Below, one piece after another: positions 18,523 to 22,408 of a stretch of DNA of 64,000 nt. Both the position numbers and the translations under genes were made by a program. Each line of letters starts with the position of its first letter. Position 1 is the stretch's first letter. The stretch comes from Bacteroidota bacterium (lineage in GTDB: Bacteria > Bacteroidota > Ignavibacteria > Kryptoniales > JAKASW01), in assembly GCA_021825585.1 (NCBI GenBank), contig JAKAGT010000001.1:124001-188000 (forward strand), given 5' to 3'. The notes under the pieces are model-generated. The model worked only from the letters and a program-made list of their open reading frames with translations, did not search any database and was not told where the DNA came from.

Positions 18523-19761
18523 TCAGAAAATATCGTACTGATAAATAAACGGTGCGGGTGCCTTAAAAAGTTCATCGAGTTTCTGAATGATACCCAGCTC
18601 CCCGCTGGCGAAACCATATTTCAAAGCATCACTCGGCTTCAGAAATCCCGAATAAATCTGTGAAAATATCCCTATTTCGGTCTCAAATTGCAATGGACGT
18701 CTTGTCTCCTCGACAGTGGTCTCTCCGTTATGGACATGCACATTCAGATTTTGTGAATTTTGGGGGAGATTCCCGTCATTTATTCGGATGACAAAATCCA
18801 TCGGCAGTTCAAGGGAGTGGCGCAGGTTTCGGAGGGAGTCGGGCACATTTATTACCCTCAGCATGAAACCTGACGCAAGCGTGGAGAAAGTCTTGTACTC
18901 GAAGAACAATCTTCGATAGTCACGCTCTCTGGGCTCCTTCAGAAAAGAGTGGAGCGGGTAATCGGCGGGAGCCAGGAATCTTATTTTAGTGACCTGTTCA
19001 CCGAGCGCAGCGAGGAACCCCCACAAGCTGCGATGCGCGGCAGCATCCAGCCCCACGAATTCCTTTATGTTAATAGCCTGCTCTCCCGGCTGTCCGATTA
19101 CGGTGGTTGCCTCCTTGTAAAACTCAAGGACGACATAGCCTTTCACTTCGCCGGTATCATAGACATAGGCATCTTTGAACTTCGGCAGCACAACCAGGTC
19201 CCAGAAACCGTCGTTTCGTACCGGAGTGAAACTGCCGTGGGTCTGCACTTCCTGAAGCAGTACCTTTTTCACTTTTCCCTTGTCAGCCTTAGTGAACGGC
19301 CGAACAAACGAGCGTTCCTCGAAATTCATCAGGTTACCCGGCGAGAACTCATACTGCATCATGTTACCTACGTATGCATAGCCGAACTTCTTGTAAAAGT
19401 GCTGCTTGAACGGAAAGAGCATCGAGACAGGATAGCCCATTTCGTACATCTTCCTAAGAGCCTCCTCCATCAAGGCTTCTGCTATGCCGCGCCTCCGAAC
19501 TTCAGGCTGAACTGCAACGGCGGCAATGCCGGCCATCGTGGTCTTGACACCACGAGTGCAAATCTCAAACGGAGTTATCCTCAGGCAGCCCGCAATCTTC
19601 TCGCTCAGCCCCTTCTCCTCGATAACGTACATATTGGAAATAGAGTAGCGGGGGTTGTTCTCGATACTCACGCGGACTATTGCCGTGTCCTCAAGAAATG
19701 ATTTCGATAGCAGCGTAGCTATTGCATCAGCGTCGCTGCCCGTCGCCTGCCGAATTATCAT
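18523..19761 (-). CDS. Eis-like GNAT acetyltransferase with SCP2-type C-terminus
   Basis: 412 residues, the size of Eis (about 400). N-terminal GNAT domain: IRQATGSDADAIATLLSKSF and the acetyl-CoA loop AAVAVQPEVRRRGIAEALMEEAL, then FPFKQHFYKKFGYAYVG. A second degenerate GNAT domain and a C-terminal sterol-carrier-like domain follow. The chain ends in Phe (YQYDIF); in Eis enzymes the terminal carboxylate takes part in catalysis, so this ending fits. Substrate unknown (amines or aminoglycosides in known members). Its start lies inside the end of the GT9 gene by 35 bases. Confidence 0.8.
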   Translation of the reverse strand: MIIRQATGSDADAIATLLSKSFLEDTAIVRVSIENNPRYSISNMYVIEEKGLSEKIAGCLRITPFEICTRGVKTTMAGIAAVAVQPEVRRRGIAEALMEEALRKMYEMGYPVSMLFPFKQHFYKKFGYAYVGNMMQYEFSPGNLMNFEERSFVRPFTKADKGKVKKVLLQEVQTHGSFTPVRNDGFWDLVVLPKFKDAYVYDTGEVKGYVVLEFYKEATTVIGQPGEQAINIKEFVGLDAAAHRSLWGFLAALGEQVTKIRFLAPADYPLHSFLKEPRERDYRRLFFEYKTFSTLASGFMLRVINVPDSLRNLRHSLELPMDFVIRINDGNLPQNSQNLNVHVHNGETTVEETRRPLQFETEIGIFSQIYSGFLKPSDALKYGFASGELGIIQKLDELFKAPAPFIYQYDIF

Positions 19762-20842
19762 ATGCTGCTTCCGTTTTGTTGAGCATTTCCTTTATGGCAT
19801 CAAAAACCGACCGTACGACAATCCCTTCATCCCCGCTTCCGAAAGTACAAACATGCGGATCTCCGGGACATTTGCCGCTGCAAAAACCTTCGGGAGGAAG
19901 AACCACTTTCGAAGTATTTCCAACCGGTCCCCATAATTTCGGCGAACAAGCCGTCAATGGACAGAACATGGAAACCGTACCGGTACCGACTGCGGATGCT
20001 ATTTGCATCGGACCCGTGCTTGACGAGGCTAATACACTTATCCGGGACAGTACCGCCGTAAGTTCGCGGAGCGAGAGTTCACCAAAGGAAGTTTTCACAT
20101 CGTGGAAACACATCCGGGCGAATTCGTCCTCAAGCACCCTTTCCTGTTCGCTTCCGGTGACCAGAACCTGGATGCCGCTCGCCGACAACTGACCCGCGAG
20201 CTCAACGTATCTTTTCACTTCCCAATTTGGCGCGGAGCGACCACTTCCCGGATGGATTCCAACAATTGGTTTACCCGCATCGAGCCCTTTTTCTTCCAGG
20301 AAGCTCAATGCGGCATTTCTCTCTTCGTCCGAGACAAAGACTTCGGGCTTCAGCCAGAGATTATTTGCGCCTATCTTCTTTGCAAGGTCGAGCATATACT
20401 CCGACTCGTGCCTCAATGGGTTGTACTTACGCCGGGAAACGCCATGCATGAAAGTGATTACTTCGTAAAGGATATGTCCCACTCCGACACGATACGGGAT
20501 TCCCGAGAGAAACAACATGTACGCTGTTCGCTTCGTCGGCATGAGAAGGAGCGCGGTATCGAATTCAAACGACTGAATCTCCCGAACCTTGGCAAAGAAA
20601 CCGTCCTTGCCAGCGCCTTCCTGACCCGGATTATCAGCTATGATTACATCTATATACGGATTGCCATTCAATAAAGGGCCGGCGTAGGAGGATACGAGCG
20701 CACCCACGAAGCAGCCCGGGAAGGAATCCTTCAGAGTGTGATACACGGGTGTCGAGAGGACAACGTCACCCACCCTGTCAGGTCTCACAACAAGAATTCT
20801 AGCATGGTTTCTTTTCAAGAAGCTCGGCAAAATCCGACTCAC
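19727..20842 (-). CDS. glycosyltransferase family 9 (heptosyltransferase-like)
   Basis: 371 residues, GTG start. GT9 enzymes add ADP-heptose or similar sugars to the lipopolysaccharide core. Features: RILVVRPDRVGDVVLSTPVYHTL (the D-x-x-GD-V motif), GIHPGSGRSAPNW in the second Rossmann domain and SSSTGPMQIASAVGTGTVSMF, the donor-binding segment. A late cysteine-bearing loop (SGKCPGDPHVC) is also seen in the family. It is first in a three-gene leftward set. With lptD at 13.6 kb it fits an LPS-making cell, though the acceptor is unknown. Confidence 0.88.
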   Translation of the reverse strand: MSRILPSFLKRNHARILVVRPDRVGDVVLSTPVYHTLKDSFPGCFVGALVSSYAGPLLNGNPYIDVIIADNPGQEGAGKDGFFAKVREIQSFEFDTALLLMPTKRTAYMLFLSGIPYRVGVGHILYEVITFMHGVSRRKYNPLRHESEYMLDLAKKIGANNLWLKPEVFVSDEERNAALSFLEEKGLDAGKPIVGIHPGSGRSAPNWEVKRYVELAGQLSASGIQVLVTGSEQERVLEDEFARMCFHDVKTSFGELSLRELTAVLSRISVLASSSTGPMQIASAVGTGTVSMFCPLTACSPKLWGPVGNTSKVVLPPEGFCSGKCPGDPHVCTFGSGDEGIVVRSVFDAIKEMLNKTEAAYDNSAGDGQRR

Positions 20843-21047: not shown

Positions 21048-21076
21048 TTGCATTAACTAATACGCAAATATATATT
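21048..21076 (+). promoter_or_regulatory. possible promoter of the 21.1-kb RNA
   Basis: TTGCAT (21048-21053), 17-base spacer, TATATT (21071-21076), giving a start near 21083. The -10 box matches five of six sigma-70 consensus positions, the -35 box only three. A TAAGTTTG matching the Bacteroidota -7 pattern TAnnTTTG lies at 21084-21091, so the true start could be somewhat later. Confidence 0.4.
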
Positions 21077-21082
21077 ACCAGC

Positions 21083-21183
21083 GTAAGTTTGAATGAGTTT
21101 CGACGAGGATCCCACCCTACCCCAAGAATCCTCGGACTATCCGTACCGACCTGCTGGCTACCCCACAGCGGGTCGGTTTTTTT
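21083..21183 (+). ncRNA. putative small RNA or leader attenuator with two C-rich hairpin loops
   Basis: About 100 bases ending in a strong terminator. Hairpin 1: CGAGGAT (21104-21110) pairs with ATCCTCG (21128-21134), loop rich in C. Hairpin 2 is the terminator (21145-21177). Both loops expose the same CTACCCCA word (21118-21125 and 21158-21165). It matches no riboswitch class I know. It is either a free small RNA or an attenuator for the M24 peptidase gene, whose ATG is 46 bases beyond the T-run. Confidence 0.5.
21145..21183 (+). terminator. strong intrinsic terminator upstream of the M24 gene
   Basis: ACCGACCTGCTG (21145-21156) pairs with CAGCGGGTCGGT (21166-21177), 12 pairs with one G-U, loop of nine bases, followed by seven T. 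It points in the same direction as the gene that follows, and the gene on its left reads the other way. It therefore must end a transcript that begins inside this intergenic region. Confidence 0.85.
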
Positions 21184-21229
21184 ATTAACAGGTTACTTTT
21201 CATATCTTGTGTAAAATCCCGGAGGAACC

Positions 21230-22408
21230 ATGGATGTACAAAAGATTCAAGCCGCAATCGCCTCGTTGGGGATGGACGGCTGGCTGTTTTTCGATTTTCA
21301 TAACCGCGACCACCTGGGCCTTAAGATCCTGGGAATGGATCCGCACGCCATGGCGACACGGCGATGGTTCTACTTCATACCAGTGAAGGGAGAACCGGTC
21401 AAACTCGCCCATAGAGTCGAGCCCGTAAAACTCGACCACCTTCCGGGAAAGAAACTGGTGTATTCGACCTGGCGCGAGCTTCACACAAATCTCGGGGAGA
21501 TGCTCGGGAAACCATCGAAGATCGCCATGCAATATTCACCGATGAATCAGATTCCTTACGTATCAATCGCCGACGGCGGAACCGTCGAACTGGTGAGGAG
21601 CCTCGGGCACGAAATCGTATCGTCAGCCGACCTCGTTCAGCTATTCGAGGCCCTGCTGGACGAGAAAGCGGTCAAGTCACACTTCAAGGCCGGCAGGCTG
21701 GTCGATCAGATTCTCGACGAAGCTTTTCAGGAAGTGCGAAAGTCTCTGAAGAATAAGAATTACAAGACCGAATACGAAATACAACAGTTTATCGGTAAGA
21801 GGTTCAAAGCCAACGGCCTCGTCACCGACGATCTTCCAATAGTCGGGACAAACGATCACCCCGCCAACCCGCACTTCGCCCCCACGCCAAAGGGATCACG
21901 GAGGATCAAACCAGGCGACAGGCTCCTCATAGACCTCTGGGCAAAACTCGACAAACCGGGATCGATCTATTATGACATTACATGGTGCGCTTTTATCGGC
22001 GATGAACCGCCTGAAGAATACATCAAGACTTTCAATGTCGTGAGAGATGCGAGGCGGGCCGGGTTCAAGTTCCTGAGCGAACGGCTGAGCGACGGGAGGC
22101 AGGCAGCGGGACGCGATGTGGACGACGTATGCAGGGGCGTCGTAGTGCAGAGCGGATACGGGGACTATTTCACGCACCGGACCGGCCACTCGATCGGCGA
22201 GGAAGTCCACGGTAACGGGGCAAACATCGACAACTTCGAAACCCAGGACACCCGCCTGCTTGTTCCGGGATGCCTGTTCTCCCTGGAACCGGGTATATAT
22301 ATCGAAGGCAAATTGGGTGTCAGGTCGGAGCTTAACGTGTTCATCGATAGTTCAAACAGGGCTGTCGTTACCGGAAGAGAGCAGCAGGAGCTGGTACTAA
22401 TTCACTAG
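21230..22408 (+). CDS. M24 family metallopeptidase (Xaa-Pro dipeptidase/aminopeptidase-like)
   Basis: 392 residues. Creatinase-type N-terminal domain, then the pita-bread catalytic domain with the five-ligand metal site spread over LLIDLWAK and YYDITW (two Asp), HRTGHSIGEEVHG (His), LEPGIYIEG (Glu) and VRSELNVFI (Glu). It would cleave peptides or dipeptides with proline in the second position in the cytoplasm; no signal peptide is seen. CGGAGGAACC just before the ATG is a strong ribosome site. Expression may be tied to the terminator upstream. Confidence 0.88.
   Translation: MDVQKIQAAIASLGMDGWLFFDFHNRDHLGLKILGMDPHAMATRRWFYFIPVKGEPVKLAHRVEPVKLDHLPGKKLVYSTWRELHTNLGEMLGKPSKIAMQYSPMNQIPYVSIADGGTVELVRSLGHEIVSSADLVQLFEALLDEKAVKSHFKAGRLVDQILDEAFQEVRKSLKNKNYKTEYEIQQFIGKRFKANGLVTDDLPIVGTNDHPANPHFAPTPKGSRRIKPGDRLLIDLWAKLDKPGSIYYDITWCAFIGDEPPEEYIKTFNVVRDARRAGFKFLSERLSDGRQAAGRDVDDVCRGVVVQSGYGDYFTHRTGHSIGEEVHGNGANIDNFETQDTRLLVPGCLFSLEPGIYIEGKLGVRSELNVFIDSSNRAVVTGREQQELVLIH

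Follow-up and report, generated by a model that had tools for sequence, protein, structure and literature searches.

In the window, the whole stretch of 64,000 nucleotides that was analysed, positions 21048 to 21183 of the forward strand hold a promoter-like pair (TTGCAT and TATATT, 17 nucleotides apart) and a predicted RNA of about 100 nucleotides folded into two hairpins. The unit is flanked by a glycosyltransferase family 9 (GT9) gene on one side and an M24-family metallopeptidase (M24) gene on the other. The features of the locus are as follows:

19727-20842, minus strand: GT9 gene, the divergent neighbour, outside the RNA unit (Pfam PF01075, E 1.6e-18)
21048-21053, plus strand: -35 element TTGCAT; CTTGCATT is present in 12 of 12 genus loci
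21071-21076, plus strand: -10 element TATATT, separated from the -35 element by a 17-nt spacer; TATATT in 9 of 12 genus loci, TAAATT in 3 of 12
21083-21183, plus strand: predicted transcript of about 101 nt, placed from promoter and terminator, with its start estimated about 7 nt past the -10 element
21099-21182, plus strand: conserved core of 84 nt, identical in 11 of 12 genus loci
21104-21134, plus strand: hairpin 1, 7 bp, with a 17-nt C-rich loop at 21111-21127
21135-21144, plus strand: 10-nt linker between hairpins 1 and 2, invariant in 12 loci
21145-21177, plus strand: hairpin 2, the terminator stem, 12 bp, with a 9-nt loop at 21157-21165
21177-21183, plus strand: terminator T-run of seven T; at least six T in all 13 aligned rows
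21203-21208, plus strand: -10-like TATCTT of M24, past the terminator, a putative promoter element
21230-22408, plus strand: M24 gene, 392 aa, the neighbour downstream, outside the RNA unit (Pfam PF00557, E 2.6e-36)

Each hairpin loop carries a single copy of the motif CUACCCCA, located at 21117-21124 in hairpin 1 and at 21158-21165 in hairpin 2, which bears out the twin loops described in the first-pass annotation. The predicted mean unpaired probability reaches 0.90 in loop 1 and 0.97 in loop 2, and is 0.56 in the linker. The fold energy of the RNA is -33.4 kcal/mol, compared with -24.2 (sd 3.2) in 200 shuffles (z -2.86), two of which fold equally well, and the predicted ensemble contains no alternative fold competing with the 12-bp terminator. 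The same annotation had placed a promoter-like pair for an RNA of about 100 bases, and its elements are common to 12 of 12 genus loci. It had also correctly set a terminator 46 bases before M24 and pointing the same way, with the T-run ending at 21183 and the ATG at 21230, and no gene before the RNA on that strand, the preceding GT9 gene lying on the other. A generic scanner lists neither element here: the promoter matches the consensus at 8 of 12 positions (3 of 6 in the -35 element), and the scanner's terminator loop limit is 8 versus a loop of 9. Across the 12 genus loci the spacing between the -35 and -10 elements is constant; the sequences of the spacer, the leader and the region before the promoter have diverged. 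In the 1.264 Mb of its own genome, both strands included, TTGCATTAAC occurs once. Judged from these sequence features and from conservation, the RNA is very probably an independent gene, ancestral in the genus, with a sigma-70-type promoter and a terminator of its own, and the earlier proposal of a free, terminated small RNA with its own promoter gains support.

A DNA search of 61 genomes returned 20 with matches, comprising 12 of the 13 genomes of the genus and eight others whose matches were confined to the M24 coding part. All 12 readable genus loci (12 of 13 genomes) have the RNA ahead of M24 and pointing the same way. In the thirteenth genome (G004), M24 begins at residue 174, near a contig end that cuts the gene and leaves the locus unreadable. 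GT9 stands on the other side of the RNA in 11 loci and is unseen in the short flank of G003. Eleven of the 12 genomes contain one strong match each, and the genome of the window (G000) contains two. The second copy (G000:C81:9429-9513) has one inserted and one changed base and a similar promoter. No M24 appears among the larger frames of its 11.8-kb contig, where the frame list was inspected and seven frames were searched in Pfam. It might be a duplicated or acquired copy, or the contig might belong to another strain, since contamination of the G000 assembly is put at 4%. The contig of this second copy also holds a MerT-type and a MerR-type gene (L021, 4666-5564).

Outside the genus, the sister family retains M24 in 7 of 7 genomes, and the RNA was found in none of them; the gene ending shortly before M24 there is presumably a fumarase. 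A covariance search of 391 genomes of the class and 395 of the phylum yielded no convincing relative outside the genus, with at most 11 candidates per genome scored under strict filters, settings at which strongly diverged relatives could be missed. When up to 150 candidates each were scored in 20 genomes of the order, only weak matches appeared beyond the true copies, the best at 17.8 bits. Two higher-scoring candidates, G053 (20.7 bits) and G340 (21.2 bits), were dropped as chance, neither CUACCCCA loop being kept. A third, G683 (25.6 bits), was dropped likewise as another terminator-like hairpin just past a 427-aa frame, which we take to encode adenosylhomocysteinase. Twelve of 13 genus genomes contain the pattern CTACCCCA-N{20-48}-CTACCCCA; of the remaining 378 genomes of the class, four do (G125, G140, G163 and G321), with unrelated sequence between the motifs, and these four were judged chance occurrences. 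Plasmid and phage records gave no match, and neither did viral contigs searched with an 18-mer of loop 1. A 15-mer of loop 2 hit viral contigs 15 times, but none of the hits extends to other parts of the RNA (best RNA-model score 12.9 bits), and they were rejected. In a named genome collection, a 19-mer of the core matched nine contigs, which were taken as contigs of nine genus genomes. As far as these searches reach, the RNA family is limited to one genus. Within the window, Rfam 15 reports no family above its gathering threshold, a loose threshold gives Hrs13 as the best match (12.4 bits versus 52 required, E 1.4), and no tRNA or tmRNA is present. Within the literature collection searched, no paper mentions both Kryptonia and small RNA, and a search on CUACCCC gave no bacterial small RNA among the matches listed.

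The core is extremely conserved within the genus, with 82 of 84 columns invariant and a mean identity of 99.6% over 12 genomes. In the same 12 genomes, SRP RNA has 89 of 99 columns invariant and a mean identity of 96.0%. The mean for tmRNA is 80.2% over 11 genomes, G009 having no full-length match, G004 being omitted for its unreadable RNA locus and one of two G002 copies being used. The tmRNA matches of G000, G007 and G011 (L156, L157 and L155) are about 55 nt longer than the other full-length ones, at 418-421 nt versus 352-366. The genus comparison of M24 gives a mean identity of 81.5% for the protein and 74.5% for the DNA, falling to 36.7% (range 25-69%) at fourfold-degenerate sites. Conservation of the core is uniform, without periodicity, and every part, including both stem arms and the linker, is more constrained than SRP RNA. 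The only non-identical core, that of G011, carries one compensated pair in the terminator stem, U-A changed to A-U. Because 82 of 84 core positions are invariant in 12 genomes, the locus rises above chance. For 84 bases that stay nearly frozen against a diverged background, we see no reasonable explanation other than selection on the RNA, and the locus is very probably a real regulatory RNA.

The stems were also assessed for covariation in an alignment of 7 sequences, 4 of them distinct (A3). One of 19 pairs is changed on both sides and 18 never vary, only one covarying because almost nothing varies, and the covariation value is matched or exceeded by 132 of 500 shuffles. The structure is backed by its energy, its terminator form and the compensated pair, and not by covariation statistics. 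Invariance of a pair does not argue for pairing, yet it shows that the stem letters themselves matter. The first-pass annotation had counted a lack of stem covariation against the RNA; with so little variation in the stems, the answer to this is an awkward one.

Two readings of how the RNA acts rank highest, trans pairing by the loops first and protein binding second. In the former, an independent small RNA would act in trans, its C-rich loops pairing with mRNAs; this statement as a whole has about an even chance of being right. The RNA would be transcribed from its own promoter and ended by its own terminator, and the two single-stranded C-rich loops at the stem ends would bind G-rich stretches in a small set of mRNAs. 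Pairing would proceed without Hfq, like that of the C-rich-loop RNAs sX13 and LhrC, possibly with help from an RNA-binding protein of the RRM type. The stems may also be recognised, since they are invariant, either by a protein or by opening and pairing over a longer stretch. The promoter elements in 12 of 12 loci, the terminator in the same 12, the conservation of the core beyond that of SRP RNA, tmRNA and M24, the loops predicted to be unpaired, the copy without M24, the failure to find Hfq where an RRM protein is found, and the layout resembling sX13 and LhrC speak for an independent RNA that pairs in trans. Hfq was found in none of the 13 genus genomes by a search that was positive in 5 of 14 control genomes, including E. 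coli and B. subtilis. An RRM protein is present once in each of the 13 genomes and also in 2 of the 14 controls. The genus protein is a candidate helper by its likeness to the RbpB-FopS pair in Bacteroides. This glycine-rich protein is 126 aa long in G000 (L221:1453-1833), and Hfq was not found in the same 13 genomes. Against trans pairing, searches of start regions, of the exact 8-mer across the genus (47 of 91 sites) and of genes near the locus gave no target. In addition, an RNA that acts by pairing alone should have stems that change over time in a compensated way, and here only 1 of 19 pairs has changed.

The loops had been likened in the first-pass annotation to C-rich loops that pair with G-rich ribosome sites. 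In the own genome, 1036 start regions were predicted, about a quarter of the genome, by a simple frame caller that chose starts partly by their Shine-Dalgarno match. GGGGTAG and TGGGGTA each occur once in these regions, compared with 1.45 and 1.20 in shuffles, a chance level. GGGG is found in 64 of the 1036, below the 109 in shuffles, a deficit that may partly stem from shuffling AGGAGG-type sites. GGAGG is found in 147 versus 60 in shuffles, an excess inflated by the Shine-Dalgarno-based choice of starts; AGGAGG-type sites are not complementary to CUACCCCA. Loop duplex energies in the start regions are no better than those in coding pieces. When the RNA was scanned in 90 windows of seven bases, two came out as commoner at starts, AACTTAC in the leader and GTCCGAG at the end of hairpin 1 and in the linker, and neither lies in a loop. 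M24 itself was considered as a pairing target; for each loop, 11 of the 12 genomes show weaker pairing with it than with the median of 25 windows of coding sequence.

Across the 13 genus genomes, TGGGGTAG followed by ATG within 18 nt gives 97 matches at 91 distinct sites, some sites matching more than one ATG. The inspection covered 47 of the 91 sites. Most of the 47 fall inside a long frame on either strand; four, each from a single species and with differing flanks, sit where a long frame begins: G000:C6 (207-aa frame), G006:C10 (429 aa), G001:C2 (501 aa) and G004:C62 (374 aa). No group of matching start regions from several species is present among the 47 of 91 sites inspected. A stretch like TTGAACGGGTTGGGGTAGTTCTG recurs antisense within long frames (L084, L086, L098, L099, L127 and L128; G011, G012, G002 and G009), with several copies in G012, and is probably a repeated protein family. 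An apparent avoidance of TGGGGTAG in the own genome (36 sites versus 132 for the reversed pattern) was dropped, as sub-words in 1.264 Mb predict 6.3 occurrences and 6 are seen; the same sub-word objection applies to the genus-wide reversed-pattern control for TGGGGTAG with ATG (230 versus 97). No conserved start-region site was detected in 97 genes close to the locus that have orthologs in one or more of G005, G007, G010 and G011, and the one shared 6-mer lies within coding sequence. The best single candidate, a cheR methyltransferase start with GGGGGTAGG (C26:102936), was rejected, since the starts of three orthologs carry none of the 6-mers complementary to the loops. The tests run, which covered 1036 start regions of the own genome and the exact 8-mer genus-wide, lend no support to pairing with G-rich ribosome sites, and the RNA is unlikely to act broadly against such sites. 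It may still have a few special targets, use weaker seeds or bind elsewhere than at starts.

In the second reading, the CUACCCCA loops and the fixed stems would form a surface for one protein, as a sponge or as part of a stable ribonucleoprotein, and pairing with mRNAs would not be the function. This is considered possible, though unlikely. The repeated loop motif, the constraint beyond SRP RNA on all parts including the stem arms and the linker, the absence of any sign of mRNA targets in the searches run, and the RRM protein in 13 of 13 genomes are consistent with it. It is opposed by the number of motif copies per RNA, just two, and by the distribution of the RRM protein, which is not specific to the genus (2 of 14 controls positive), while the RNA is. 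A bolder version, which we hold to be doubtful, has nearly every nucleotide selected in a genus-specific, perhaps near-essential ribonucleoprotein component or global regulator whose loops are read by a protein and pair with no mRNA. The RNA would then be young, absent from the sister family and yet more constrained than SRP RNA.

Recent spread of a small mobile or gene-converted element could also give an appearance of conservation, and the second copy in G000, whose contig also carries genes of the mercury-resistance type, fits such an origin. The RNA nevertheless occupies the same place in 12 of 12 loci whose neighbours have diverged, the M24 proteins being 75-91% identical pairwise and the GT9 proteins 62-79% identical to that of the own genome (11 loci). 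The leader and promoter spacer have diverged as well, strong matches number one per genome in 11 of 12 and two in G000, and nothing matched in plasmid or phage records, nor the loop 1 18-mer in viral contigs. Mobility is therefore a highly improbable explanation of the conservation.

Equally far down stands the proposal that the RNA is an attenuator or riboswitch-like leader of M24. The first-pass annotation had raised it, with a signal sensed for the peptidase gene, and had taken a lasting position upstream of M24 as its sign and movement as the sign of a free small RNA. The position does hold, before M24 and in the same orientation, in 12 of 12 readable genus loci; one copy lies elsewhere, without M24, and 7 of 7 M24 genes of the sister family are without the RNA. 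Past the terminator, all 12 genus loci conserve a separate TAWYTT element for M24, and its distance from the ATG is constant to within 1 nt. TTGA[AC][TC] precedes this element by 17 nt in 9 of 12 loci, the own genome not among the nine, and we infer that M24 is transcribed from the TAWYTT element. From the core end, or terminator, to the M24 start codon the length varies between 47 and 223 nt across genus loci, and the ensemble offers no fold that competes with the 12-bp terminator. With these observations against it, the attenuator proposal is unsupported; the RNA is very probably not an attenuator of M24, and its constant place is read as shared synteny. Finally, that the conserved stretch encodes a small peptide is barely credible: an ATG at 21093 of the window opens a short frame through the RNA, but this start is missing in most aligned loci, which largely refutes the idea, a single inserted base interrupts the core of the C81 copy, and conservation is uniform, without periodicity.

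The locus is thus best described as a putative new small RNA family of one genus, with strong comparative evidence of function. An uncultured group, recorded as Candidatus Kryptoniota or Bacteroidetes bacterium, gains a small RNA with clear boundaries and no Rfam family, in genomes where Hfq was not found and an RRM protein was. In small RNAs it is common for the seed to be kept and for the remainder to drift. In the alpha-r14 RNAs, the motif is kept while the stems differ (PMC10746234). The present RNA keeps nearly everything, and from its partner one would learn what is able to freeze a small RNA over its full length. The locus also provides a single-locus test of small RNA use by Hfq-less bacteria in this part of the tree.

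Four known systems come closest to the RNA. The sX13 RNA of Xanthomonas has three stem-loops with C-rich apical loops containing CCCC and is Hfq-independent; it is restricted to a single bacterial family, and the mRNAs it represses are rich in GGGG close to their starts (PMC3771888). The present RNA shares with this description CCCC in both hairpin loops and a narrow taxon range, and it may likewise act without Hfq, which was not found in 13 of 13 genus genomes. It differs in having two predicted hairpins instead of three and in the motif context CUACCCCA. Over the predicted starts of the own genome as a whole there is no sign of GGGG enrichment (64 versus 109 in shuffles, 1036 regions); sequence kinship to sX13 was judged through Rfam only. 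LhrC of Listeria, as outlined in PMC4132741, is about 110 nt long, exists in five copies and carries UCCC in a loop, the linker and the terminator loop, with Hfq dispensable for its lapB target. The present RNA is of similar length and likewise places C-rich motifs in the loops of its first hairpin and of its terminator. However, UCCC is confined to the margin of loop 1 (21110-21113), loop 2 and the linker having none, and most genomes hold one copy. The alpha-r14 or NfeR1 'cuckoo' RNAs of alpha-proteobacteria consist of three hairpins that repeat an ultraconserved anti-Shine-Dalgarno motif, CCUCCUCCC, on drifting stems (PMC10746234). One motif is likewise repeated in the unpaired parts of successive hairpins in the present RNA, but CCUCCUCCC is absent, CUACCCCA is not complementary to AGGAGG and the stems are frozen. 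The FopS RNAs of Bacteroides form a 14-member family that is bound by the RRM-type protein RbpB and uses an extended seed to bind close to start codons (PMC11697453). Here too a small RNA occurs in a bacterium of the wider group with an RRM protein in 13 of 13 genomes, a putative binder, although it is mostly single-copy with its motifs in loops. In conclusion, by the features tested the RNA belongs to none of sX13, LhrC and alpha-r14, and the likeness is one of layout and probable working, not of descent.
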